A stretch of 64,000 bases of DNA from Maribacter aestuarii (GTDB taxonomy: Bacteria; Bacteroidota; Bacteroidia; Flavobacteriales; Flavobacteriaceae), in contig NZ_CP107031.2 of the NCBI RefSeq assembly GCF_027474845.2, positions 2,680,501-2,744,500 on the forward strand, written 5' to 3'. The translations under genes were made by a program, and so were the position numbers. Shown here in pieces: positions 3,684 through 46,097 of this stretch; the stretch's first letter is position 1, and the number at the start of each line of letters is the position of its first letter. A model generated the notes under the pieces. It saw only the letters and a list, made by a program, of their open reading frames with translations. It was not told where the DNA came from and searched no databases.

Positions 3684-5072
3684 TCAATTGGAATCCATCA
3701 TTTCTTTTTCCAGACCTATTACAGAATTAGGATTTTTGCGCAGGTAAGTCGCTATAAGCCGCTGTGTTTCCAAGGTGTTTTTTCTAGGTTTCAAAAAGGT
3801 ATCCAACTCCTCTAACTGTTGAATGTTTTCAGACGTTGGTATGAATCCATAACCTACGTAGTAATTTTCCCGTATGAGTACAAAAGCCTCCTCTTCCACT
3901 GTTCTCCCTTTTAGGCGAATGGCATAATCGGTTTTCTGATTTTGCAGGGATAAGACGGCTTCCCTTACCCGAGCATTGTATTCTTTCAAATGTCCTAGGC
4001 TAGAGCAAATACCTAAGCACTGTTTTATCTTGTAATGCGAGCAAGTCGCTATATTTTCCTGTAAATGGCAGTATTTTGGACAAAGCTCAAAAGTTGAGCA
4101 GAGACTTTCCAAAAATTGTCTACAATCGGTGATACTATAAAAAATGGCCAGGGGATTTGGAACCATTTTTAATTTATTATGGGCCAAGTGTACTATCCCG
4201 TTTCTGTCCTCGTAAGAGAAAATACCGTACTGTTGAATATTTCTTTTTTGGGCTCTATTGTGTATTGGGAAATACTTTTTAATCTCTTCCGATTCTTCCA
4301 ATAAGGCAATCAACTCACTGCCGGTTTCCTCAAAATCCAAATGAACGGTTTCCCTACACAAATTCAGCTCCTTGCTACTCTTGTCATAAAAGTGACTTAA
4401 TACTCTTTTCTTAATGTTGATAGCCTTGCCGACGTAAATGATTTTGCCTTGCGCGTTTTTAAAATAATACACTCCCGGAGTTGATGGTAATTTGTCAAAC
4501 TCGCTTTTGGGCAAAGAAGGGGGTAAGGTGGCTTCTTGAGATTTTGCGTTCAGAAATTGCTTGAAAACTGCGGATGCCCCCTCGGCGCGCAACAACTTAT
4601 GAAATAAGAGAACTGTTGCGTGTGCGTCTCCGCGTGCCCTATGTCTATTTTGCAAAGGAATGTCAATGGCAGAACACAGTTTACCAAGACTATAAGAATT
4701 ATAGCCTGGAAATAATCTTCTGGATAGGCGGACGGTACAAAGTTTTTTCCGAACAAAATTAAGGCCGAGCAGACGGAGCTCATTTTTTATGACGTTGTAG
4801 TCAAAATTTACACTATGGGCCACAAAGATGCTATCTTGGGTAAATCTTATGATTTTAGGCGCTATAACTTCGAGTAACGGTGCATCCCTTACCATATCAT
4901 TATCAATACCGGTAAGTCCGGTGATAAAGTAGGGTATCTCACATAGTGGATTGACCAAGGAAGTAAATTCGTCCACCACCTCATGCCCATCATATTTAAA
5001 AATGGAAATCTCGGTAATACGGTTTCCTTTGATTCCGTTTCCAGTGGTTTCTATGTCAACGATGCAGTACAA
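3684..5072 (-). CDS. DnaQ-like exonuclease fused to GIY-YIG (UvrC-type) nuclease domain
   Basis: A 462-residue cytoplasmic nuclease. Residues 1-165 are a DEDD-type 3'-5' exonuclease like DNA polymerase III epsilon, with VDIETTG at residues 5-11, NFDYN near 105 and HRARGDAHAT near 143-152. Residues about 195-275 are a GIY-YIG domain (PGVYYF, IYVGKA, then KKRV) as in the N-terminus of UvrC. A cysteine-bearing region follows near 330-355. The same exonuclease plus GIY-YIG pairing is known in several bacterial groups and relates to Cho-type repair nucleases. The real polymerase proofreading subunit is a separate gene, so a role in DNA repair is the best guess. Stands alone and converges on the small membrane genes. 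Confidence 0.85.
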   Translation of the reverse strand: MYCIVDIETTGNGIKGNRITEISIFKYDGHEVVDEFTSLVNPLCEIPYFITGLTGIDNDMVRDAPLLEVIAPKIIRFTQDSIFVAHSVNFDYNVIKNELRLLGLNFVRKKLCTVRLSRRLFPGYNSYSLGKLCSAIDIPLQNRHRARGDAHATVLLFHKLLRAEGASAVFKQFLNAKSQEATLPPSLPKSEFDKLPSTPGVYYFKNAQGKIIYVGKAINIKKRVLSHFYDKSSKELNLCRETVHLDFEETGSELIALLEESEEIKKYFPIHNRAQKRNIQQYGIFSYEDRNGIVHLAHNKLKMVPNPLAIFYSITDCRQFLESLCSTFELCPKYCHLQENIATCSHYKIKQCLGICSSLGHLKEYNARVREAVLSLQNQKTDYAIRLKGRTVEEEAFVLIRENYYVGYGFIPTSENIQQLEELDTFLKPRKNTLETQRLIATYLRKNPNSVIGLEKEMMDSN

Positions 5073-34943: not shown

Positions 34944-36062
34944 TTACCTATTCACAGGAATATTCCACTCGATCACAGGTTGTACTTTTGGAGCGGTATA
35001 AGCTCCTAAGGCTTTGAACCTAAGTGACAGGGTCTGGATTTCCTCGAGCGTCTTAACATGAAGCATTTTGGTCTCCCCAGCAGCTATGGTGAAAACCGGA
35101 GAGCTATCATAAAAAGTAAACTCCATGACATTCTCGAACATCAGGTCACTACTGGAATTATTCTTCAGCTCTAATTTTAAAACAGTAGTTTCAGGAACAT
35201 AGCTCACGGACAATACTTCTATACTGGCTTTGATAAGTGGTTTCAAATAGTCCTCTTTTCCTACTAACAAATCATTGTAAACTGCAACGGTTCTTCCGGC
35301 AAATAAAGCCTCTTGCATACTTTCTAAGGTTTTTTCCTTGGCAAAAACCAAGGTTATGGGCCTATGGTTTCCCTTTTCGGTATAGTCCCAGTCGATAAGA
35401 CCGTGAATATCGCTCGTACCCATAATCGTCAAGTTATGCTCCAAAGCTAAGGCCAAGGATTCTTCGGCATAATCAAAGGTGTTGATGACTTCAATGCCAT
35501 GGAGTTCACCATTTTTAATACGCTCTTTTTGAAAGTTAGACAAAACGGGATTCCCTTTAGGCGCCTGTGCATACCAGGCCGGATGATTCCAGAATACAAA
35601 GGCATTCTGCTTTTTCGCTTCTGCGAAAGCATCGGCCGCATCTTCTTGCAAAATAGGATTTACATCCTTAATGAAAACCGCGTTATTGTGTCCCATTGGG
35701 GTGCTACGCGTAATTTCCGAACCATGAACGATCAGTAATTCATGTTCTTTGGCTTCTTCCATAGCCAGTACAAAGGAACGGTTACGGTCTGGATGTGGAA
35801 TGTCTGCCAGATGAGGTTGATATTCCAAATGCTCGGTCAGCGAAATGGCATCCAAGTTTTCCCGTAATGCCTCTTGAACGCGAATGTTTGGCCAAACATT
35901 TCCGTCAGAAAATACGGTGTGCATGTGCAAATCCGTCTTGAGGGTCTTATAGCCTTCAATATCCGGATAGTTCATGGGTTTAGCACCCATATGCGAATGG
36001 GTTTGGGCGTAGCATAGTATTAAGGGTAATAGTAGGAATAACGTGAGTAGTCTATATTTCAT
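34944..36062 (-). CDS. Exported PHP-domain phosphodiesterase (Sb-PDE-like)
   Basis: A 372-residue protein with a signal peptide (LLTLFLLLPLILCYAQ) and a PHP domain: KTDLHMHTVFSDG near 41-53, SLTEHLEYQPH near 73, HGSEIT near 114, NHPAW near 157 and GTSDIHG near 212. The histidines and acids form the PHP metal cluster. The length and C-terminal beta-rich extension (about 280-372) match the Sb-PDE group of bacterial phosphodiesterases, some of which cleave organophosphates. The natural substrate is unknown. A lone TAnnTTTG element (complement of 36079-36086) lies just upstream. Confidence 0.82.
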   Translation of the reverse strand: MKYRLLTLFLLLPLILCYAQTHSHMGAKPMNYPDIEGYKTLKTDLHMHTVFSDGNVWPNIRVQEALRENLDAISLTEHLEYQPHLADIPHPDRNRSFVLAMEEAKEHELLIVHGSEITRSTPMGHNNAVFIKDVNPILQEDAADAFAEAKKQNAFVFWNHPAWYAQAPKGNPVLSNFQKERIKNGELHGIEVINTFDYAEESLALALEHNLTIMGTSDIHGLIDWDYTEKGNHRPITLVFAKEKTLESMQEALFAGRTVAVYNDLLVGKEDYLKPLIKASIEVLSVSYVPETTVLKLELKNNSSSDLMFENVMEFTFYDSSPVFTIAAGETKMLHVKTLEEIQTLSLRFKALGAYTAPKVQPVIEWNIPVNR

Positions 36063-36078
36063 GGTACTAGTGTTTTGT

Positions 36079-36086
36079 CAAATGTA
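36079..36086 (-). promoter_or_regulatory. Possible -7 element for the PHP phosphodiesterase
   Basis: TACATTTG on the minus strand fits TAnnTTTG and lies about 16 bases before the ATG at 36062. No clear TTTG partner is found at the right distance, so this is a weak call. Confidence 0.35.
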
Positions 36087-36141
36087 TGAAAATCAACTTT
36101 TCTAAGAAATAAGTTTATTAAGTGTTGAATTAAGGAATTTA

Positions 36142-37047
36142 TCAATTTATCAAAGATACCCCTACACCAAAGGTCGTTTGCCTGTGATTGTAATCAATTA
36201 GTGTTTCTCCGTAACCATCGAATAATTGCAAATGGCCATTAAAATTTTCAAAAATCGGGAAAGACCAATTTAATCGAATGCTACCCCTACTTTTAGTACC
36301 AAAGTTGAGGGAATGTCTTGCTACTGCCCTAAATCGTTGTCTCCCCCAATCGTAAACTACGTCAGCTTCCCCTCTCCCTATGAAGTCGGATATATTTTCA
36401 TTATCATCTACTTTACTGTCTATTCTAATCCAGGGTTTAAGTACAATCTGCCAATTATTACGCTCAAAGCCGGCGTGCAGGGCAATACGGTTCCAACTTC
36501 TTGAAATAGGGTCTGAACGTCCGTTGGATTCGTGAATGATGGATAGGCCCACCATCTTTGTTTCAAAACCTAACAACGGAAACTTAACTGGAACATTAGC
36601 GATGATTTCCGGTTGGTAGTTAAGTTCCCTGAACGGTCTTGAGAGTTTTTTGTTGTAAATCTGCCAAAACGCAGTTTGAGAATATGCGACCCATAAATCT
36701 AAATGGCCTTTTAGCATTTTATGAAAGATCTTGGTCTTGAGACTAAGCTGAAATTTAGCCTCTATCGGGTCTAAATTCACCGGTGCCTCCAAGGCCATAT
36801 CAGAATTTTCGGATTGCGGAAACTTATTGGTGTTAGAAGAATATTTAGCTAGACTAAAATAAATTGGTTTATACGAAGTAATCAGAAAAGTACCCCGATG
36901 GTGTTCATCATCCAATTCCCAAAGTTCGGACAGATCTTTGCTGTTATTAAAAATCCAATTTTACTCCTCATTGTCCTGTCCCTCAGCATTTAGCGTTATT
37001 GCAAAAATTAGGGGTATACTTATTAAAATCCTTAATTTGTTAAGCAT
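36142..37047 (-). pseudogene. pldA: Outer-membrane phospholipase A with in-frame stop after the signal peptide
   Basis: From ATG at 37047 one frame reads a signal peptide (LRILISIPLIFAITLNAEGQ), then DNEE, then TAA at 36961-36963, then continues in the same frame through FNNSKDLSELWELDDEHHRG into a beta-barrel. The barrel has HESNGRSDPISRSWNR (catalytic His and Ser of OMPLA, residues near 160-176) and ends in alternating strands with YGETLIDYNHRQ. Ignoring the stop, the product would be about 301 residues, the normal OMPLA size. The stop leaves only an unexported barrel if translation restarts at TTG 36915. A nonsense mutation from a sense codon is the simplest reading. The enzyme would hydrolyse outer-membrane phospholipids. 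Confidence 0.82.
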
Positions 37048-37066
37048 TATTGGTATATTGATTTCG

Positions 37067-37074
37067 CAAAACTA
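37067..37074 (-). promoter_or_regulatory. Possible -7 element for pldA
   Basis: TAGTTTTG on the minus strand fits TAnnTTTG and lies about 20 bases upstream of ATG 37047, supporting that ATG as the original start. No good TTTG box is seen further upstream. Confidence 0.4.
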
Positions 37075-37221
37075 AACATTCGATAGCTCACCTATTAGTA
37101 ATATAGGATTTAATGGTAGTTCAATTAAAAACCTTCTTTTTATGAACTTTAACCGCTATTTTTTAGTTTTACAACCTATTGAAAAACAAGTAGTTATTAA
37201 ATATATTTTTACTGTATTAGT

Positions 37222-37253
37222 GTAAACCGTATACGCTACCGTATACGGTTTAC
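37222..37253. repeat. Perfect 14 bp inverted repeat with 4-base loop
   Basis: GTAAACCGTATACG (37222-37235), CTAC, CGTATACGGTTTAC (37240-37253). Both arms contain the palindrome GTATAC. No gene end is within 170 bp. It could be an operator, a processing site in a long transcript, or a mobile-element end. Confidence 0.7.
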
Positions 37254-37341
37254 TTTATAAAAATATTGAACTTCTATAAATTTTCCTAATAATATTTGTA
37301 ATGTGCACAATATTAAATAAGAGAAGATTAGTAATAGATAG

Positions 37342-37365
37342 GGGTTCGAATCCTGCTAACTCTAT
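37342..37365 (+). other. tRNA 3'-end-like fragment
   Basis: GGGGTTCGAATCCTGCTAAC followed by TCTA resembles a T-loop (GGTTCGAATCC) and acceptor end, but no D-arm, anticodon arm or pairing 5' acceptor can be found upstream. It may be an attachment-site remnant or a decayed tRNA. Confidence 0.35.
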
Positions 37366-37739
37366 TTTAATATTTCTTAACATTTAAAACCTAATAATTA
37401 ATTGATTTTAAAAGGTTTTATCTTTTGGTCTTTTCTTAAAAATGCTTTTTTGACCGGATAATTCTTTTAAGAGGTAAACAAATCGGTCAAAACAACATTC
37501 TCAAATTTTAATTCCATTGTAAGCGGGGGAATCCAGAAAAAGGTTTATCGCGTAAAAGGGATTAGAGGTAAAAAGAATCTGTAATGATAAATTGAAATTG
37601 TTCTTACACTAGGTGACCTTCATAAAAGATAGAATTTGTAGAAAAAGGAAGTTATAAAAAACAATAAGAATAAAATGAAACGGTACTTGGAATTACGTTA
37701 TGTGAAAACCTTGAATTAATAGCTAAGCTTTTTAACGGA

Positions 37740-39791
37740 TTATAGCAAGCCTTCTTCATCCAGAGATATTTTTAACTCGGCCTGATTTTTCCAAAATCTA
37801 TCCTTAATTTTCTGCATAATTTCCTCAAAATCTGGATGGCTCTTTAATGGTTTTATCAATGGTTCATCTTCGATTAATAAAAACCAATACAGATAATTCT
37901 CTGTTTCGGAAAATATTCTAAGCTGTTCGATAGCCTCATTGATTTTTCCTTCATAAGCGTATTTCCAAACCAGATTCACACTTCTATAAATGGATTGATC
38001 TCCTTCGCAATATTCAGAGAAATCATTAAATAGTTTCTCAGCTTCCTTGTCCAATCCCATCTCTTTATAGACCAGTGCAATTTTGACATTTTCCTGTAAA
38101 TAAATATCCAGACTATTTGCTTCCCTGGTTTCCACAAATTTTTTAAAATAGAAGTAGGCACTGTCATAATTTTCCTCGATGTAGTACAACTTCCCTATGT
38201 CCTGTAAAATATCAAGCCGAGTCGTATCTTTCTTCCATTCCTTTATCAACAAATTCCTTGTACGCTCAATATTACCGTCCTTGGCGAACAGTATAAATGC
38301 CTTTAAATGTGGAGCATAAAAATTTTCAGCATTATAATCCAACGAACTGTTAATATATTTTAAAGCTTCATCTGCAAATCCTGACGATACAAGCGCATTA
38401 CTTAGTTGTAAATACGTATAGCTCTGAGTAATGGAATCACTAGCAACGGTTAGCTGAACCCCTTTTAATGCGTACTCTAGGTATTTATCAGTATTGGGCA
38501 GCATATGCGAATAAAATTCCGCAAGCATTTGTACTGCCAACGATGAATTAGGATTATACTCCAGTGCCTTATTAAGATGTGGTAAGGCTAATTTGTACTC
38601 CTTAGTTTGTATATAGTAGAAGGCCTTTGCGACCAAGCTTTCGGCGGATTTTGAATCGTAAAGCAAGGCCTTATCCGCAAAGCTGTTAATCTTTTCGGTG
38701 TACTGTTTCTCTATTTGCGACATTTCTAGAAGATAGTATGAGATAGCGATGTTGGCATAGGCGAGGGCAAATTCTGGATCCTGTTCTATAGCTTTTTCGA
38801 ATAATGAAATGGCCTTTTCCAAGCCTTCTTCTGAGCGAGAATAATAAGGGTCCAATGCCTGTAGGTAGTAATCATAGGCCAATAGGTTTTCAGTTGGTTT
38901 TTTTTCAATTTGCTCCAGTTCTGTCGGTGTTACGACGGCTGCAATGGCATCTGCAATTTTCTTGGCCACGTCGTTTTGCAATTCAAAAATGTCCTCAACT
39001 TCCCGACTGTACTGTTCTACCCAAATAGGGGTGTCCGTAGAAGCGTTGATCAATTGTATGTTGAGCAACACCTGATCACCGACACGCTGACCGCTACCTT
39101 CTACCAAGTAGTTCACATGCAGCTCCTCGGCAATCTCTGGAATACCCTTGTCCGTTTTTCTATATTTCTCTACCGAGGTTCTACTGATGACCCGCAGGTC
39201 TTCAATCTTCTGAATGTTGTTCAAAGCAGATTCCATCAGTCCGTTTACAAAATAAAGATTGGTGGAATCGCTGCTCTCATTCTTAAAGGGCAATACTGCA
39301 ATGGATTTTTCAATTTTCGGTTCATTTATAGCATCCTTTTTATTGAACAGTATTATGGCTACAAGTATCAGTGCTAAGGATGTTGCAGCAATAATCGGCC
39401 ATTGGTATAGTTTCAAATAGTTTGGTTTAATCTGTTCGATTTCAACTTCTACATCACTTTTTCCAAGCTCCCCAGGAGAATATCCGTACTGTTCTCGAAA
39501 GCATTTAATGAAATAGGAAGTGCTTCCAAAACCTACTTGATATGAAATTTCGGAAACCGTTGAAGAATCTTCCTTTAGCAGTTTCATTGATTCCTTAAGA
39601 CGGACTTGACGTATAAACTGGCTTGCAGAAAGCTGTGTCTGTTTCTTGATCTTCCGGAGCAGGTTGGATCGGCTCATGTGCAGAGCTTCCGCAAGTTCGG
39701 ACACCCCAAATTGTTCGTTGGCCAAATTTTCCAGAATTAGGGCTTCCGCTTGTTCTATAAAGTTTGGTTTTTTGGCCGATGGATTTGACAT
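37740..39791 (-). CDS. Membrane-bound regulator: N-terminal AraC HTH, TolB-like domain, TPR repeats
   Basis: A 683-residue protein. Residues about 10-115 are an AraC-type double helix-turn-helix (FGVSELAEALHMSRSNLLRK; then VSEISYQVGFGSTSYFIKCF). One membrane helix lies near 132-152. A TolB/FlgO-like segment (KSIAVLPFKNES near 163, then VNYLVEGSGQRVGDQV near 226) follows, then TPR repeats from about 300 to 650. The HTH is cytoplasmic while TPRs would lie outside, so it may pass an envelope signal to DNA. It is divergent from the small-peptide/leader-repeat cluster at 40.0 kb, its likeliest target. A second regulator with the same domains in reversed order lies at 57.5 kb. Confidence 0.85.
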   Translation of the reverse strand: MSNPSAKKPNFIEQAEALILENLANEQFGVSELAEALHMSRSNLLRKIKKQTQLSASQFIRQVRLKESMKLLKEDSSTVSEISYQVGFGSTSYFIKCFREQYGYSPGELGKSDVEVEIEQIKPNYLKLYQWPIIAATSLALILVAIILFNKKDAINEPKIEKSIAVLPFKNESSDSTNLYFVNGLMESALNNIQKIEDLRVISRTSVEKYRKTDKGIPEIAEELHVNYLVEGSGQRVGDQVLLNIQLINASTDTPIWVEQYSREVEDIFELQNDVAKKIADAIAAVVTPTELEQIEKKPTENLLAYDYYLQALDPYYSRSEEGLEKAISLFEKAIEQDPEFALAYANIAISYYLLEMSQIEKQYTEKINSFADKALLYDSKSAESLVAKAFYYIQTKEYKLALPHLNKALEYNPNSSLAVQMLAEFYSHMLPNTDKYLEYALKGVQLTVASDSITQSYTYLQLSNALVSSGFADEALKYINSSLDYNAENFYAPHLKAFILFAKDGNIERTRNLLIKEWKKDTTRLDILQDIGKLYYIEENYDSAYFYFKKFVETREANSLDIYLQENVKIALVYKEMGLDKEAEKLFNDFSEYCEGDQSIYRSVNLVWKYAYEGKINEAIEQLRIFSETENYLYWFLLIEDEPLIKPLKSHPDFEEIMQKIKDRFWKNQAELKISLDEEGLL

Positions 39792-40027
39792 GTTGTTTTT
39801 TGCTGGCTCTAAATTAGGGAAAATATAGAGAATTATGCGTTATCGCCAACGGCCATCGATTTAGAGGAAAAAGCATCTTTTGCGTCATAAGTTACATTGC
39901 CGCGCCATAATTTTTATGCCCTCCTGAAACTTTACATAGTTCTGCGCATAGCTCCTACAGGTTGCTGCAAGTTCTATAGCACCTTTGTAACATCAAAAAT
40001 CATAACGAACAATTTAAAACAATAATT

Positions 40028-40141
40028 ATGAAAGCATCAATCACAAGAACAGCAACGGAGTCAAGAACAGGACAGTACTTCTCATCCTTTAGCGCAAGCA
40101 AAAGAACCCAATGGGCACAGTACAGAAACTTTAACCGCTAA
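40028..40141 (+). CDS. Small protein, 37 residues, paralogue of the ORF at 40228
   Basis: ATG 40028 to TAA 40139-40141. The product aligns without gaps to the 41-residue ORF at 40228: the shared pattern is T-E-S-R, then F at +5 and F at +8, then S-K-R, W and R at equal spacing, with identity at about 11 positions. It is basic and contains no membrane segment. Two neighbouring ORFs with such a shared pattern are unlikely by chance, so I judge both real. The function is unknown; a regulator or modified-peptide precursor are only guesses. It begins about 236 bp from the divergent AraC/TPR regulator. Confidence 0.6.
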   Translation: MKASITRTATESRTGQYFSSFSASKRTQWAQYRNFNR

Positions 40142-40179
40142 TCACGATCAATATGAAAAAATCAAAAAACAACACAGTC

Positions 40180-40238
40180 ATGAAATCGAAGATTCACGAA
40201 TACCTATAAAAATTAAATAACAAAGCCATGAGTAAAAC
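40180..40238 (+). repeat. Leader repeat, copy 1 (with stop)
   Basis: Encodes MKSKIHEYL then TAA. It differs from copy 2 (40440-40498) at only 3 of 59 positions, ending in the first codons of the following small ORF (ATGAGTAAAAC). One of the differences, CTATTA to CTATAA, makes the stop, after which the next ATG follows 18 bases later. It may also be read from ATG 40153 in the same frame. Confidence 0.7.
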
Positions 40239-40353
40239 GGGCATCAATCAATCGCCAACGGAATCTAGAAGGTTCACTTTCTTTACCCATTTTGAGGACA
40301 GCAAGAGAATCCGTTGGTCACATTCCAGACCTTACCTTCATTTAGAAGCCTAG
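40228..40353 (+). CDS. Small protein, 41 residues, paralogue of the ORF at 40028
   Basis: ATG 40228 to TAG 40351-40353, placed right after leader repeat copy 1. Aligns gaplessly with the 37-residue ORF at 40028 (shared TESR, two Phe, SKR, Trp, Arg). Its first codons (ATG AGT AAA AC) are the same as those of the signal-peptide start of the OMP gene at 40488, showing that the leader plus start was duplicated as a block. Function unknown. Coding is inferred from paralogy and placement. Confidence 0.6.
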   Translation: MSKTGINQSPTESRRFTFFTHFEDSKRIRWSHSRPYLHLEA

Positions 40354-40439
40354 TTTGTTGGTTTGAAAAAAGGGGTAGGCCCTAATCAAAGTCTATCCCT
40401 TACCATAACAAAATTATAACAATAATTAAAAATGTAATT

Positions 40440-40498
40440 ATGAAATCAAAGATTCACGAATACCTATTAAAATTAAATAACAAAGACATGAGTAAAAC
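40440..40498 (+). repeat. Leader repeat, copy 2
   Basis: Encodes MKSKIHEYLLKLNNKD in frame with the next gene. The first 43 bases are identical to copy 3 at 41236-41278, and 56 of 59 bases match copy 1 at 40180. Copy spacings are 260 and 796 bp. Confidence 0.85.
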
Positions 40499-41096
40499 AA
40501 TCAAAAAACAAGCTAAGTTAAAAGTGGCGTGTGCTGCCTTTACTTTAATATCTGCACTAGCATTTGCACAAAACATTTCTAACACTCAAAACAGCTTTAA
40601 CCGAGATGGTTTTATCTTCGAATTTGGTCTAGGTGGCGGTATAATCAGTATAGAAGATAGTGCTGGAACCCAAAGTTTTGATGATACCCAAGGCGGTGGC
40701 ACTTTTCCTGAATTAAAGTTTGGCTATATGCTGAACAACCGTTTAGCCGTTACCGTTTCTGCACCTGGAATGATTTACACGCTTAATGATAACGACAGGC
40801 ACTTTGGAGGCATTATACCTTCTGTTCAGTACTGGGTAAAAGACCGGTGGTGGATACATGGTGGTGCCGGTTTAGCCATAGATGGCCCTGCATTATATGA
40901 TATTGAAGATAACATAAATGAAGATTGGAATACGGGTTTAGCTGTTATGGCGAGCACGGGTTACGAAGTGTACAGAAAAAACAAATTTGCCTTAAACGTC
41001 CAATCCAAATTACTCCTGGGTGGTGTAAAGCTAGATAATAATAATGACAGAGAGGTGGTGCAATTTAGTTTAGGAATTGGCTTTAGCTGGTTTTAA
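40440..41096 (+). CDS. Outer-membrane beta-barrel protein preceded by leader repeat copy 2
   Basis: The open frame is 218 residues. The first 16 (MKSKIHEYLLKLNNKD) are the leader repeat; ATG 40488 then begins an ordinary signal peptide (MSKTIKKQAKLKVACAAF, then cleavage after ALAFAQ). The mature part has alternating strands and ends in an aromatic residue (GIGFSWF), as needed for barrel insertion. I favour 40488 as the start of the exported protein, because an extra hydrophilic N-terminus of 16 residues is tolerable but unusual. The barrel is of OmpW/OmpA size (about 170 residues); ligand unknown. Confidence 0.75.
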   Translation: MKSKIHEYLLKLNNKDMSKTIKKQAKLKVACAAFTLISALAFAQNISNTQNSFNRDGFIFEFGLGGGIISIEDSAGTQSFDDTQGGGTFPELKFGYMLNNRLAVTVSAPGMIYTLNDNDRHFGGIIPSVQYWVKDRWWIHGGAGLAIDGPALYDIEDNINEDWNTGLAVMASTGYEVYRKNKFALNVQSKLLLGGVKLDNNNDREVVQFSLGIGFSWF

Positions 41097-41129
41097 TCAT
41101 TTGCACCGCCAAAGGGTATAATATCCCAA

Positions 41130-41185
41130 GGCTTGCCTCGAAATTAAAAGTCCGTTTCCTACGAATGCATTGCGGGCTTGCCCCG
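41130..41185. repeat. Short direct repeats GGCTTGCC(T/C)CG
   Basis: GGCTTGCCTCG (41130-41140) and GGCTTGCCCCG (41175-41185) start 45 bp apart in the spacer between the barrel gene and leader copy 3. They are more GC-rich than the surroundings; meaning unknown. Confidence 0.4.
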
Positions 41186-41235
41186 AGGTCGTTTACTAAA
41201 GAAAAAATAATAGCAATAATCAAAAAAATATAATC

Positions 41236-41278
41236 ATGAAATCAAAGATTCACGAATACCTATTAAAATTAAATAACA
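41236..41278 (+). repeat. Leader repeat, copy 3
   Basis: Forty-three bases identical to the start of copy 2, then divergence. As in the other copies, an ATG follows a few bases on and starts the real secretion signal of the downstream gene. Confidence 0.85.
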
Positions 41279-41886
41279 TAATCATGAATAAACCATTTAG
41301 AATTAACACATTAAGAACCTTGGGATACATGTCATTAGGCCTTCTTTTACTTACGACCGCATGTGGTCAAACAAGCAGTAAATCAAAAACCGAAGTAACC
41401 ACCAGTACCGAAACCAAGTCGGTAGTTGATGCACCAGAAATGGATATTCAAACAGCGATACTATCGGACAATCTTGAAGCCGTTAAACAGCATATTTCGG
41501 CAGGAACAGATTTGAACAAAAAAGACCCTATGACCGGGGCCACACCACTAATCACTGCCGCGAGCTTTGGAAAGCATAAAATTGCGCAAGCCCTTATTGA
41601 TGCCGGTGCGGATTTATCGGCTAAAAATAACGATGGTGCAACAGCTTTGCATACGGCCGCATTCTTTTGTAGAGTCGAAGTCGTACAGTCACTTATTGAT
41701 GCCAAAGCCGATAAGACCGCTAAAAACAACTTTGGTATGACACCAAGGGAAAGTGTTATGGGGCCATTTGCAGAAATAAAACCCATTTATGAAATGCTAC
41801 AGCAGCAATTAGGGCCGATAGGTTTACAAATTGAGTTGACCGAAATCGAAAAAACCCGCCCGGTCATAGCAATGATGTTGCAATAA
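41236..41886 (+). CDS. Ankyrin-repeat lipoprotein preceded by leader repeat copy 3
   Basis: The open frame is 216 residues; the first 16 are leader repeat (MKSKIHEYLLKLNN plus II). ATG 41284 then begins a lipoprotein signal peptide (MNKPFRINTLRTLGYMSLG) with the lipobox LLTTACGQ. Three ankyrin repeats follow (for example GATPLITAASFGKHKIAQAL and GATALHTAAFFCRVEVVQSL, about residues 75-175). Likely a membrane-anchored binding protein facing the periplasm. It ends 18 bp before an acyltransferase gene. The true start is either ATG; the lipobox position favours 41284. Confidence 0.82.
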   Translation: MKSKIHEYLLKLNNIIMNKPFRINTLRTLGYMSLGLLLLTTACGQTSSKSKTEVTTSTETKSVVDAPEMDIQTAILSDNLEAVKQHISAGTDLNKKDPMTGATPLITAASFGKHKIAQALIDAGADLSAKNNDGATALHTAAFFCRVEVVQSLIDAKADKTAKNNFGMTPRESVMGPFAEIKPIYEMLQQQLGPIGLQIELTEIEKTRPVIAMMLQ

Positions 41887-41904
41887 TCGATTTTAAAATT
41901 AAAC

Positions 41905-43017
41905 ATGATGAAAACTGAAAGAAGATATGATATTGATTGGTTAAGGGTTATTGCCATTGGCTTGCTGCTCATTTATCACATCGCCATTGTATTTCAACCT
42001 TGGGCCATGTTCATTGGCTTTATCAGAAGCGATGAATTTCTAGAAGGTTTATGGAAACCAATGACCATGTTAAACGTCTGGCGGATTCCACTTTTGTTCT
42101 ACGTCTCGGGAATGGGGCTCTATTTTGCCATGCGCAAGAGAAACTGGAAACAATTGCTTCTGGAACGGACAAAGCGTATTCTTTTACCCTTCGTCTTTGG
42201 CTTTATAGCCATAACCACCTTACACATGTATATTTTTCAGACGTATTATGATATGCCGTTGGGCTATTATCCGCATGTAGGGCATTTATGGTTTCTAGGG
42301 AATATTTTTGCATACGTCCTGCTGTTACTGCCCTTATTTTTCTATCTGAAAAAGAACGAGAATGGAAGATTTAAAAACGGCTTGTCCAAATTCATGGGTA
42401 ATCCTGTTGGGCCTTTGTCGATTTCTATATTTTTTGTGCTTGAAGCATTACTGGTAAAACCCCAGCTATTCGCCCTATATGCGGAGACTTGGCATGGCTT
42501 TTTTATTGGATTTTTGGCCTTCTTTTTCGGCTTTCTTTTCGTGTACAGTGGTAAAACATTCTGGCAGACCGTTTTAAAATGGCGCTGGTTATATATTGGT
42601 TTGGCCGCCGTGCTGTTCGGCATAAGATATTTTAATTACGCGACGGAAGCACCCGGTTATCTTACGGCTATCGAATCCAATTGTTGGATTTTCGGCGTTT
42701 TCGGCCTCGGATATAAGTACTTGAACAAACCAAGTAAAATCCTGAGTTATTTGAGCCAAGCAGCGTATCCTGTTTATATCATACACATGTTTGTTTTGTA
42801 CGCAGGGGCTATGTTCATATTGCCATTGGAAATACCTATCTTATTGAAATTCGTAGGTATTGTAGCTTTTACAGGTTTAGCCTGCTATCTCATTTATGAA
42901 TTTATTATTAAAAGGATTGGATTCTTAAAGCCATTGTTTGGACTTAAATGGAAATCCAATAAAGCAAAAAAGCTCATGAAAATGTATCATCTAAAAATTA
43001 AGGACTCTTCAAATTAG
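41905..43017 (+). CDS. Acyltransferase family 3 membrane protein
   Basis: A 370-residue protein with about 10 membrane helices. The N-terminal YDIDWLRVIAIGLLLIYHI is the acyltransferase-3 signature with the conserved His in YHI near residue 25. Family members acylate sugars or glucans on the membrane. FYVSGMGLYF near 65 and HVGHLWFLGNI near 125 are further family segments. It follows the ankyrin lipoprotein by 18 bp and may be co-transcribed. The substrate is unknown. Confidence 0.85.
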   Translation: MMKTERRYDIDWLRVIAIGLLLIYHIAIVFQPWAMFIGFIRSDEFLEGLWKPMTMLNVWRIPLLFYVSGMGLYFAMRKRNWKQLLLERTKRILLPFVFGFIAITTLHMYIFQTYYDMPLGYYPHVGHLWFLGNIFAYVLLLLPLFFYLKKNENGRFKNGLSKFMGNPVGPLSISIFFVLEALLVKPQLFALYAETWHGFFIGFLAFFFGFLFVYSGKTFWQTVLKWRWLYIGLAAVLFGIRYFNYATEAPGYLTAIESNCWIFGVFGLGYKYLNKPSKILSYLSQAAYPVYIIHMFVLYAGAMFILPLEIPILLKFVGIVAFTGLACYLIYEFIIKRIGFLKPLFGLKWKSNKAKKLMKMYHLKIKDSSN

Positions 43018-43143
43018 TTCCAATTTAAAAAACCGAACGATTGGTCACACTTTTTAAGATACTTTAATGTTACTTTTTTGATAGTCTTGAAAGTTGAAAT
43101 GTAACAAGCCTCGGTTTATTAAGTGTTCTTTAAAAATATTAAA

Positions 43144-43998
43144 ATGTCGGAAAAATTAAGCCATCCCAAAGAAGTCCGGAAAACGATACTGTTGTTTTTG
43201 GGTATTTTGACCCTGCTAAGTACTATCTGTTATTACGCAATACTCAAGCTGAACCCTACAAGCATCTATGTCGGGGCTTTAATGATGAGCCCTGCATTAT
43301 CCGCCTTTATTACATTAAAGCTACTGAAAAGACCGATTTCAAGTCTTCCATGGGGTCTGAAAAGTTTGAAAAATTTACGCCTATCCTATTTGATTCCGGT
43401 AGCCTATATTATGATTGCCTATGTATTGATTTGGGTTTTCGGTTTTGGAAATGTGCTCAATCAGGAAACTATCACCGAGTGGTCGCAAGAATTAGGCATG
43501 GAAGGTTTCAGTAGTACAATTATACTATTGACTATGATTGTTCTCTTATCTATTGTTGGTGTTGTAAAGAACATTGGTTCGACATTGGGCGAGGAAATAG
43601 GATGGCGGGGATTCTTCAACTACGAACTTCGGAAACTATTTTCCTTTGGTGGTGTTTCCATGATTAGCGGATTGATTTGGGCGATATGGCATTGGCCAAT
43701 TATCTTTTTGATATACAAGGGAAGTGGAAACCTGTTGCTACACATTACAGCTTTTACCGTAATGATAGTTGCAATTTCGGTCATTTTGGCCTACTATACT
43801 TTTAAATCCAACAGCTTGTGGCCTGCGGCCCTATTTCATTCCGTACACAATATATTCATACAGAAGATTTTCACGCCGTTGACGATAACAAATAACTGCA
43901 CGACTTTTTGGATAGATGAATACGGACTCATGCTACCGATTATTACGACGCTATTTGCCATCTATTTTTGGCGAAAGGCGAAAGTTGAGAACCTATAG
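43144..43998 (+). CDS. CPBP-family intramembrane metalloprotease
   Basis: A protein of about 284 residues with around 8 membrane helices. The family motif GEEIGWRGF near residues 151-159 has the catalytic Glu pair and Arg, and the second motif WAIWHWPI near 180 and HSVHNIF near 240 carry metal-binding His. CPBP (CAAX/Abi) proteases cleave prenylated or bacteriocin-type substrates, or serve in self-immunity. ATG 43144 is favoured over GTG 43123. Next to the acyltransferase and a beta-lactamase-family gene. Confidence 0.88.
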   Translation: MSEKLSHPKEVRKTILLFLGILTLLSTICYYAILKLNPTSIYVGALMMSPALSAFITLKLLKRPISSLPWGLKSLKNLRLSYLIPVAYIMIAYVLIWVFGFGNVLNQETITEWSQELGMEGFSSTIILLTMIVLLSIVGVVKNIGSTLGEEIGWRGFFNYELRKLFSFGGVSMISGLIWAIWHWPIIFLIYKGSGNLLLHITAFTVMIVAISVILAYYTFKSNSLWPAALFHSVHNIFIQKIFTPLTITNNCTTFWIDEYGLMLPIITTLFAIYFWRKAKVENL

Positions 43999-44037
43999 GT
44001 TTTAAGACAATAAAATGAAAAAACAAACAATCGTATT

Positions 44038-45081
44038 ATGGCAAAGAAACAATCAAAACGAATACTCAAAATCATATTAATTATGGCAAGCATCAGCTCA
44101 CTATTCTTTGTGCCATGGATTTTGCTAAGATTACTGTTAACACCATTACCAGATACGGTTCAGGAACAGGTCAATGATGCCATTGGATACGGTTTGGACG
44201 GCATGATTGTTTATGTAGACCAAGCTGGAAAGCCACCTGAGTTTTATGCCGCTGGCTGGCAGGATCGAAAAAATAAGATTCCTGCCAACCCAAAAGCTTT
44301 ATTCCGGATTGCCAGCATTAGCAAGTTGTATGTTGCTGTTGCCGTAGCAAAATTAGTTAATGACAATCAGTTGTCTTTAGACAAAACGCTCGCTGATTAT
44401 ATGCCGGAACTGGTGGGACGAATTGAAAATGCCGATAAAATCACCTTGAGAATGATGGTGCAACATCGGTCTGGTATTCCGAACTACACGGACTTTCCAG
44501 GTTTTTGGGTAAACGATTATTCTAAAAACACTAAAGAATCGCTCGATTTGGTCCTCGATACTCCTGCCGATTTTAAACCGGATAAAAAATATAGGTACTC
44601 AAATACCAATTATCTGTTGATTGGCGAAATCTTGGATAAAACATTGGGATACAGTCATCACCAATTTATCAAAAAGGAAGTTTTAATGCCCCTTGGGCTC
44701 AACGATACCTACAGTTTGCTAAGTGAAGTGAATTTAGACGATGTTATGAGCGGATATGCCGTAGACTATGAGCCAGACCTAAAGCCCAATGATTTTGTAA
44801 GCCCTGCCGGCTCCATGGTGGCTACAGCACAGGATGTGGGTATATTCTTGAGGGCGTTGAACGACGGCTCCTTGCTAAATGATAAGGAACAAGCTATTTA
44901 TACATCAATCTATGTATATGAACATACAGGATTATTACCAGGTTACAGCAGTATTGCCAAGTATCACAAGGATATTGATGCTGTGGTTGTTCAATTTGTA
45001 AATACTAGTGGCGGATACTCTTGGAACGTATCAGAAAAAATTAATAATAGAATTGTAAAAATCCTGAAAAGCAGAAAGTAA
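44038..45081 (+). CDS. Serine hydrolase of the beta-lactamase class C / PBP4-like family
   Basis: A 347-residue protein with one N-terminal membrane anchor (IILIMASISSLFFVPWILLR). The SxxK motif is SISK at residues 93-96 (FRIASISKLY), the YxN motif is YSN in KYRYSNTNYLLIGE near 181, and a third block, HTGLLPGY, near 305 takes the place of KTG. Such proteins range from beta-lactamases to D-aminopeptidases and esterases; antibiotic resistance cannot be assumed. It probably acts at the outer face of the inner membrane. Confidence 0.87.
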   Translation: MAKKQSKRILKIILIMASISSLFFVPWILLRLLLTPLPDTVQEQVNDAIGYGLDGMIVYVDQAGKPPEFYAAGWQDRKNKIPANPKALFRIASISKLYVAVAVAKLVNDNQLSLDKTLADYMPELVGRIENADKITLRMMVQHRSGIPNYTDFPGFWVNDYSKNTKESLDLVLDTPADFKPDKKYRYSNTNYLLIGEILDKTLGYSHHQFIKKEVLMPLGLNDTYSLLSEVNLDDVMSGYAVDYEPDLKPNDFVSPAGSMVATAQDVGIFLRALNDGSLLNDKEQAIYTSIYVYEHTGLLPGYSSIAKYHKDIDAVVVQFVNTSGGYSWNVSEKINNRIVKILKSRK

Positions 45082-45112
45082 CCAATACCTTAAAATTAAA
45101 ATCAAATCATTT

Positions 45113-45799
45113 ATGATCGGAAATACAGAACAAAAACAATTGATTAAAACTGCAAGAATAACTGGAGTGTGGTATTTAATGATGGCTATTTCAGGGATTT
45201 TAGGGTTTATGGTCTTTCATTCTCAAATATTTGTTTCTGGAAACCCCGAACAAACGCTAACGAATTTGGTAGAATTAGAATCCACCGCAAGAATTAGGTT
45301 GCTCTTTGAGTTTGCTATCGTAATATCTCAAGCACTTACCGCAGTTTGGTTTTACAAATTGTTTAAAGATAGTTATGAATTGGAAGCTTGGACTTTAGGT
45401 ATATGGGGAATGGTAAATGCTTTAGCGATTATGATAAGTGCAATTTCAATCGCCTCTGCAATAGGTGTTGCTAATTCTGACATAAGTGTTATGGAAGATA
45501 AGGTTGTACTAATTCAGGTTTTTCAAAATATAATTTCAAATGCTTGGGGTATTGGTGGTCTTTTCTTTGGGCTTTGGCTGTTTCCCATGGGTTATATCGT
45601 CATTAAATCTAAAAGGATGCCCGTCTGGTTAGGGAGAGTTATTATTTTAGGGGGTATAGGCTATCTAATTACCACCTTTATCCGCTACGCAGGAATTGAT
45701 TTTAGCTACAATAGATTCCTTATTCTACCAGCAACCATCGGAGAATTTTGGATGATAGGTTATTTATTAATGTTTGGCATAAGACCTAGCAACGAGTAA
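45113..45799 (+). CDS. DUF4386 family membrane protein
   Basis: A 228-residue protein with six or seven membrane helices and the ARITGVWYLMMAISGILGF start typical of DUF4386 proteins. No catalytic motif is seen. It follows the serine hydrolase gene by 31 bp on the same strand. The function of the family is unknown. Confidence 0.8.
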   Translation: MIGNTEQKQLIKTARITGVWYLMMAISGILGFMVFHSQIFVSGNPEQTLTNLVELESTARIRLLFEFAIVISQALTAVWFYKLFKDSYELEAWTLGIWGMVNALAIMISAISIASAIGVANSDISVMEDKVVLIQVFQNIISNAWGIGGLFFGLWLFPMGYIVIKSKRMPVWLGRVIILGGIGYLITTFIRYAGIDFSYNRFLILPATIGEFWMIGYLLMFGIRPSNE

Positions 45800-45821
45800 A
45801 ATTAAATTAAAAAGGCATACA

Positions 45822-45906
45822 ACAAAGAGAGTATTACTCCCGAAGCTTTGGGATTATCGAAGTTTTAAGCTTCACCTTAATTACTAACCTTAAAGCTCTC
45901 TTTTGT
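45822..45906. terminator. Large nested hairpin between convergent genes
   Basis: Outer arms ACAAAGAGAG (45822-45831) and CTCTCTTTTGT (45896-45906, one bulged T) enclose a perfect inner pair GAAGCTT (45842-45848) and AAGCTTC (45867-45873). It lies between the DUF4386 gene and the convergent LytTR gene and likely ends both transcripts. Confidence 0.5.
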
Positions 45907-46097
45907 TCTTTCTTATTATACAATCAATTTAAAAAGAATCAAACTTAAGAGGTCTATAAGAACTAGTGATTTGAGTTCTAATTCAAATCGCTATTATTTT
46001 TTATTTTGTAAATTACTTTTTGAAAGTTAGTGTTTCTAAATTCGCTACTACACATACACAAAACAGTTGGCAACTTACTGTTAGAACAAACAATTAC

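Follow-up and report, generated by a model that had tools for sequence, protein, structure and literature searches.

A short repeat, very likely mobile, that stands behind ATGAAA gene starts in Flavobacteriales and brings a start codon of its own

Rickettsia palindromic elements (RPE) are small repeats that occur in unrelated protein genes, often in frame (PMC10969869). Miniature inverted-repeat transposable elements (MITEs) and small mobile sequences such as RU-1, RU-2 and RU-3 of enterobacteria are non-autonomous, lie between as well as within genes and have open reading frames (ORFs) that can fuse to genes (PMC2759123); MITEs measure 70-300 bp and carry terminal inverted repeats (PMC3733652). 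Repetitive extragenic palindromes (REPs), of the GTAG or CGTC type, are multicopy sequences of 20-40 bp, of which the CGTC type occurs in Bacteroidetes and some lie at the NH2 end of ORFs (PMC3733652). Here we analysed a 64,000-nucleotide stretch of the Maribacter aestuarii genome (RefSeq assembly GCF_027474845.2, contig NZ_CP107031.2, forward-strand positions 2,680,501 to 2,744,500; hereafter the window), in which three nearly identical blocks stand at the starts of three neighbouring genes. We consider it very likely that these blocks are copies of a mobile, non-autonomous repeat, about 45-51 nucleotides (nt) long, that has spread through Flavobacteriales and that supplies a start codon where it sits at gene starts.

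As far as the accounts in these sources go, the element is like RPE in occurring in unrelated genes and mostly in phase with them (46 of 54 gene-start clusters, 44 of these without a stop), and unlike RPE, which are about 150 bp long and palindromic, in being 45-51 nt long, not evidently palindromic and placed behind ATGAAA with its own start. It shares with MITEs and RU sequences a non-autonomous nature and a presence both between and in genes, but it is far shorter (RU sequences have 103-168 bp) and no terminal inverted repeat was seen. Like REPs, it is multicopy, small and sometimes found at an ORF start; unlike them, it has no tag or stable hairpin, and it lands inside such palindromes in several genomes. 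A search of open-access papers found no description of this element. It seems to work like an RPE or a small mobile sequence, and would be new in its size, in lacking inverted repeats and in its exact placement at start codons.

The element consists of a near-invariant 5' box, TCNNNGATTCAYGAANNC, an A/T-rich linker of variable length and a 3' box, RTGARTAAA, and is flanked by AAA. In the window the blocks begin at 40180, 40440 and 41236 on the forward strand. Copies 1 and 2 are 95% identical over 59 nt and copies 2 and 3 are 100% identical over 43 nt, and a codon-degenerate pattern of eight codons with up to three mismatches matched three times in the 64 kb, always at the blocks (0.03 matches expected; none of 100 shuffled controls reached three). 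Both comparisons confirmed the three blocks reported in a preliminary description of this DNA. Element copy 1 (40186..40236, 51 nt) lies behind the original sm41 start ATGAAA (40180..40185), as placed by comparison with the empty orthologue L047; the AAA found at either end leaves its limits uncertain by 3 nt. Its leader frame has a stop, which had been noted before and was located at codon 10, and the 41-residue protein sm41 (40228..40353) starts with ATGAGTAAA from its 3' box. Copy 2 (40446..40496, 51 nt), behind ATGAAA at 40440-40445, is in frame with a gene for a small outer-membrane-barrel-like protein (OMP; 40440..41096; 218 aa from the first ATG and 202 aa from the element ATG at 40488). 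Copy 3 (41242..41292, 51 nt), behind ATGAAA at 41236-41241, is in frame with a gene for an ankyrin-repeat lipoprotein (41236..41886; 216 aa, or 200 aa from the element ATG at 41284; Pfam Ank_2, 4.4e-17). In both of these in-frame readthroughs the downstream gene's own ATG lies at +48, again in agreement with the first account. The OMP gene had no Pfam family above the cut-off, and its barrel was recognized by eye, as was the lipoprotein signal of the ankyrin protein. The repeated similarity in the window spans about 100 nt because the flanking A-rich 5' regions are alike. A search of this genome for the 5' box gave the three copies and no fourth.

Filled and empty versions of the same sites were then compared, and in these comparisons the insert follows AAA and ends in AAA. 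For sm41 in Maribacter, L047 and L041 are empty and L042, L049, L050 and the window are filled; L047 reads GTC-ATGAAA-ACATTC, and the element stands at that point in L049 and L050. Among 26 OMP loci, 9 are filled and 17 have no element, and the 5' flank cgaacaatcATGAAA is common to the empty L382 and L383 and the filled L384, L390, L393 and L400. Ankyrin genes gave a similar picture (23 loci, 9 filled, some of them decayed, and 14 without the element), with L361 reading ATGAAA-ACACTTAAAATCAATTC and L359 having the element followed by AAAACATTTAAAATCAATTC. Filled and empty forms of a palindromic, REP-like repeat with like flanks were found within one locus of one genome. A further pair came from the conjugation gene traI, where L316 reads ATATTATGAAA-ACAAAAATC and L068 has 45 additional nt at the junction. 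These two are 100% identical over 100 nt on each side, 99.8% identical over 1476 nt downstream and 95.7% identical over 1503 nt upstream, which leaves little room for a diverged donor. A 45-nt gap was found in six of eight filled and empty traI pairs; of the other two, one lacked a gap within the size range and the other could not be aligned cleanly. Insertion is thus exact behind ATGAAA, copies occur in unrelated genes and in intergenic palindromes, and presence and absence are scattered at the same site. The cassette enters resident genes, and filled and empty orthologues share their flanks; the earlier suggestion of a recombination target that swaps secreted proteins behind one leader is not supported.

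In a maximum-likelihood tree of 59 traI sequences (33 filled and 26 scored empty, of which L321 has a divergent insert-like stretch), the element changed between presence and absence at least 17 times, and at least 15 of these changes are forced by well-supported branches. The label is nearly as scattered as in shuffles (mean 19.4 changes; 91 of 500 were as low). Such frequent and precise presence and absence makes traI a natural system in which to search for the enzyme. One extended reading is that an unknown recombinase moves the cassette precisely into and out of ATGAAA starts and palindrome loops across Flavobacteriales, toggling two N-termini; with its own start codon and a leader mostly free of stops, the cassette could then stand before nearly any gene. 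We regard this as possible but somewhat doubtful; if true, the cassette would be among the smallest known mobile elements and the first aimed at start codons. The window's genome also has a second, element-free OMP copy (L397). A 15-nt stretch that opens it was considered as a scar and rejected, as the first five codons are repeated there in tandem (compare L385); a start of this kind (MK.IKMKTIK) is seen in the element-free OMP paralogues L385, L387, L388, L394, L395, L397, L398 and L399.

The repeat is widespread in related genomes. Among 397 genomes of the family, a pattern of the first eight codons that permits 1536 spellings gave 34 matches, spread over 26 genomes and 24 of 237 genera; the backward control had none. 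All 34 matches were ATGAAATCRAAGATTCACGAATAC in two spellings, with no synonymous change save one wobble G/A; the repeat is defined by its nucleotides. A leader-peptide attenuator was rejected because these matches, with the single G/A wobble, do not combine a conserved peptide with synonymous variation. When up to three mismatches were allowed anywhere, 78 of 397 genomes matched, with up to eight copies per genome (backward control, three in all), and the flanks of these matches revealed intergenic multicopy repeats. A gapped two-box pattern without ATG was found in 32 of 395 genomes of the order, with up to nine copies in one (control, none). Across the phylum it occurred in 8 of 228 genomes, all in the window's family, and in none of 200 genomes outside the order. 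A scan of one genome per species for the form with ATG gave at least 120 stretches. Among the 80 matches listed, 79 carry titles of genera that we take to belong to Bacteroidota; the other (L129) is titled as a metagenome-assembled genome of Candidatus Nitrotoga and is probably a misbinned contig. Viral contigs had no stretch of the ATG form and six of the gapped form, five of which are one chance-like sequence. The sixth, in a contig of the viral collection (L408:6236, reverse strand), is a copy at the start of a gene with a signal-peptide-like N-terminus. Plasmid records gave no match to the one 60-nt query used.

These distributions bear on two rival explanations. The first does without a mobile element and invokes local duplication or gene conversion confined to one operon. 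The window copies do share their linker and the flank similarity of about 100 nt, but this explanation leaves unaccounted for the stretches in other genomes, at least 120 of them, and the like elements at unrelated sites. As a whole explanation it is already contradicted, and we consider it very unlikely; it could still describe the last step in the window operon, where the element may have spread between copies by gene conversion. The preliminary description had proposed that the block would be an accident of duplication if it occurred nowhere else and the small ORFs lacked conservation. The block does occur elsewhere, and a look for it ahead of unrelated genes, the check which that description had proposed, found it there in Flavobacteriales relatives; the small ORFs are conserved. 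The three window copies probably come from one source, because their linkers are almost identical.

The second is a functional regulatory leader, either a coupled upstream ORF or a translation-control RNA, that is kept by selection. It would fit the gene-start position and the near-invariant sequence, and several out-of-phase copies have a leader stop at or near the second ATG. However, several genomes carry the same sequence between genes in multiple copies, close orthologues lack the element at the identical site, the target genes have no evident common function and the box decays in some Maribacter ankyrin orthologues. The idea of control by a leader peptide or RNA was dropped when the 24-mer was found without ATG as an intergenic multicopy repeat, and we give a regulatory leader little credence. 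The divergent AraC/TPR regulator in the window had been named earlier as the likely controller; the element's other sites lie in unrelated operons.

To describe the anatomy of the element, 173 contexts were grouped by their flanks into 77 site clusters, and representatives of 76 of them were aligned (alignment A1; L225 was omitted, as its 3' box was misplaced). In a variability sample fetched with mismatches allowed, the 3' box followed shortly behind in 36 of 39 distinct sites, and the three sites without it look degenerate. In this sample positions 4-8, 13-15, 17, 19-21 and 24 of the 24-mer never vary, positions 3, 11, 12 and 16 have one or two variants each, and positions 1-2, 9-10, 18 and 22-23 vary freely. 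Terminal inverted repeats are absent in A1, in which the 5' end is TCNNNGATTC and the 3' end TGARTAAA; only an inner, off-centre ATTCA/TGART match was present. AAA (2-3 A) stands on either side of the insert and once in empty sites, so that a target duplication and an element end look the same. Linkers at unrelated sites are mostly closer to each other than shuffled ones (35 sites of one length; mean best identity 0.74 against 0.60). Furthermore, two sites whose flanks are unrelated carry one and the same 46-nt element, and in 15 pairs of site clusters, a few of them within one genome, the elements differ by 1-2 nt. Near-identical elements at unrelated sites indicate that whole elements are copied.

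We also weighed whether the element belongs to the class of REPs and REP-associated tyrosine transposases (RAYTs), that is, a hairpin repeat moved by a Y1 tyrosine transposase. Its size, its intergenic multicopy habit and the copies inside REP-like palindromes speak for this, and a hairpin AATC-NNN-GATT is possible, with nearly fixed arms and variation in two of the three middle bases. A palindrome stem of at least 7 bp surrounds the element in 5 of the 21 clusters without a preceding ATG, against 1 of the 56 with one; a tighter geometry with at least 6 bp gave 3 of 21 and 0 of 56, and is too narrow for CTGAAA/TTCAG repeats. Some of these palindromes end in GACG, the CGTC tag that is described for REPs (PMC3733652). 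The element itself has no visible GTAG or CGTC tag and no stable fold (RNAalifold gave no pairs on 76 sequences). Genes of the Y1_Tnp family are absent from the window's genome (G000) and from G386 and G214, two further genomes with multiple copies, and none was found near an element. We therefore consider membership in this class unlikely.

For the mobile repeat that we favour, an enzyme acting in trans would recognize the 5' and 3' boxes and insert the repeat at a short run of A, leaving AAA on either side; this AAA could be a target duplication or part of the element. In the Maribacter operon the repeat would have entered sm41, the OMP gene and the ankyrin lipoprotein gene, or been copied between them. 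Several results weigh against such a repeat. A mobilizing enzyme was not found: Y1_Tnp genes occur in 9 of 12 element-bearing genomes, with none in the three named above, and no element was present in any of 19 Y1 loci examined. No longer version of the element was seen among the 39 distinct sites, where no systematic search was made, and no self-sufficient version was found. As single-stranded DNA, the three window copies, one of which was folded on both strands, were not predicted to fold better than shuffled sequences (z-scores 0.37 to 0.83). A candidate helix, 13-18/49-54, was rejected; it pairs in 88.2% of cells, the same as in shuffles, and has no covariation beyond theirs. In one length class (four sites) linkers are no closer than shuffled ones (0.54 against 0.53), and recombination between conjugative elements may lie behind part of the changes at traI. 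To these we add the qualifications on the ATG counts, the post hoc test and the cluster L268 given in the next paragraphs.

At gene starts, copies lie exactly between ATGAAA and the remainder of the gene. ATG stands directly before AAATC in 56 of the 77 clusters, a share that is inflated, some searches having required ATG. In a search free of ATG, 20 of the 30 loci fetched first read as gene starts and 10 did not; these 20, which include the window locus and its copy in G249, comprise 17 with ATG and 3 whose first codon is altered. Unrelated genes follow the copies: inspection by eye pointed to TraI-like conjugation proteins and a histidine-rich lipoprotein, and Pfam searches with seven target genes gave OmpH, HlyD, a short-chain dehydrogenase (SDR), DUF2807 and glyoxalase, with two genes outside any family. 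Secreted targets dominate, probably because many signal peptides in the family start with MKK or MKT, that is, with ATGAAA. In L079:654-769, a copy starts a small gene without a signal peptide that looks helix-turn-helix and antitoxin-like.

How genes cope with the insertion was seen from the 3' box. An ORF opens from it in 54 of the 56 clusters with a preceding ATG (ATG in 45, GTG in 8 and TTG in 1); the exceptions are L059 and L268, and the 3' box of L268 has no usable start. In 46 of the 54 the old start is in phase, with no stop in between in 44, and all eight out-of-phase clusters have ATG in the 3' box. The excess of in-phase clusters over the others (11 of 21) gave a Fisher p of 0.0056, tested post hoc. 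The 3' box begins with ATG, GTG or TTG in 19 of the 21 clusters without a preceding ATG as well, and the start codon is therefore a property of the element and not a result of selection at genes. In the gene family of L090 (titled Chryseobacterium) and its relatives, the first ATG is missing from L279 and is directly followed by a stop in L282, and both keep the ATG of the 3' box; with these lesions of the first start, the second must work there. Likewise, sm41 must be translated from the ATG that the element supplies. For the OMP and ankyrin genes either ATG would be usable, so that the signal peptide would either carry a 16-residue extension or lack it.

Insertion at gene starts would thus be tolerated because the 3' box RTGAGTAAA supplies a new start codon in the gene's frame and because the usual length of 45, 48 or 51 nt, if free of stops, also lets the old start read through. 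The earlier proposal that the block was copied as a start cassette is supported by these results. A mobile element can, in this way, land on a start codon harmlessly by bringing another. If so, the N-termini of some secreted and conjugation proteins of Flavobacteriales would derive from a parasite-like repeat of about 50 nt, and gene callers may annotate wrong starts for filled genes.

Bypassing elements (byps) of yeast mitochondria are mobile inserts of similar size in coding sequence, with equal triplets on both sides, and the ribosome skips them. The element described here differs from byps in having a new start codon at its end. Two identical elements were found in diverged paralogous genes of G762 (L286:1894-1940 and 4381-4427), with a leader stop and no usable ATG, GTG or TTG in the 3' box. 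Skipping from AAA to AAA, which would leave the protein unchanged, could explain such copies and the AAA on both sides. But the coding copies examined sit at starts, no systematic search having been made inside genes, and with a usable 3'-box start in 54 of the 56 ATG-preceded clusters skipping is not needed; we judge it extremely unlikely.

The two small proteins upstream of the OMP gene were also studied. sm37 (40028..40141, 37 residues, basic) begins ATGAAAGC and is element-free. The gap-free alignment of the 37- and 41-residue ORFs claimed before held up, and over 13 family members E, S, K and R are invariant. The ratio of nonsynonymous to synonymous polymorphism (pN/pS) was 0.17 for sm37 (9 genes) and 0.43 for sm41 (7 genes, equal-length pairs only), and both are coding genes under purifying selection. 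Proteins of the 41-residue type are 30-35% identical to sm37, and from their sequences the two look like paralogues. Element-free sm37 is probably a picture of sm41 before insertion, and the first residues of sm41 come from the element. A relative of sm41 in Pricia has 81% identity over 78%, and sm37 is conserved across Maribacter loci. In two Maribacter species sm37 is duplicated (L041:5757-6029 and L042:5411-5800), and one of the L042 copies has drifted.

In the window, sm37, sm41, the OMP gene and the ankyrin lipoprotein gene form an operon-like row, with the block absent only from sm37. Ahead of the row and divergent from it lies a regulator with an AraC-type HTH and TPRs (37740..39791, reverse strand; Pfam HTH_18, 1.9e-20, and TPR matches), a neighbour outside the element, and downstream the row continues with an acyltransferase (Acyl_transf_3), a CAAX-type protease and a serine hydrolase of the beta-lactamase family. 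The gene row is kept in Maribacter relatives, but not all of the blocks are present there. An Rfam search restricted to positions 36000-46000 of the window gave one weak, unrelated match. The three-copy locus of the window, seemingly identical in sequence, was also seen in L065 and L086 of G249, a genome assigned to another genus.

Further arrangements were observed in other genomes. Two tandem elements lie 64 nt apart in a Flavobacterium-like palindromic repeat region (L284:5785-5900), which has several further copies within about 6 kb, and near-identical elements in opposite orientation bracket about 2.3 kb in L299. A second subfamily, with box A GATTCAGCGAA and box B GTGAGCTAAA, was found at L284:3667, L287 and L288, where its copies, preceded by GGCAAA or GACAAA, occupy the stem of the palindromic repeats just mentioned for L284.

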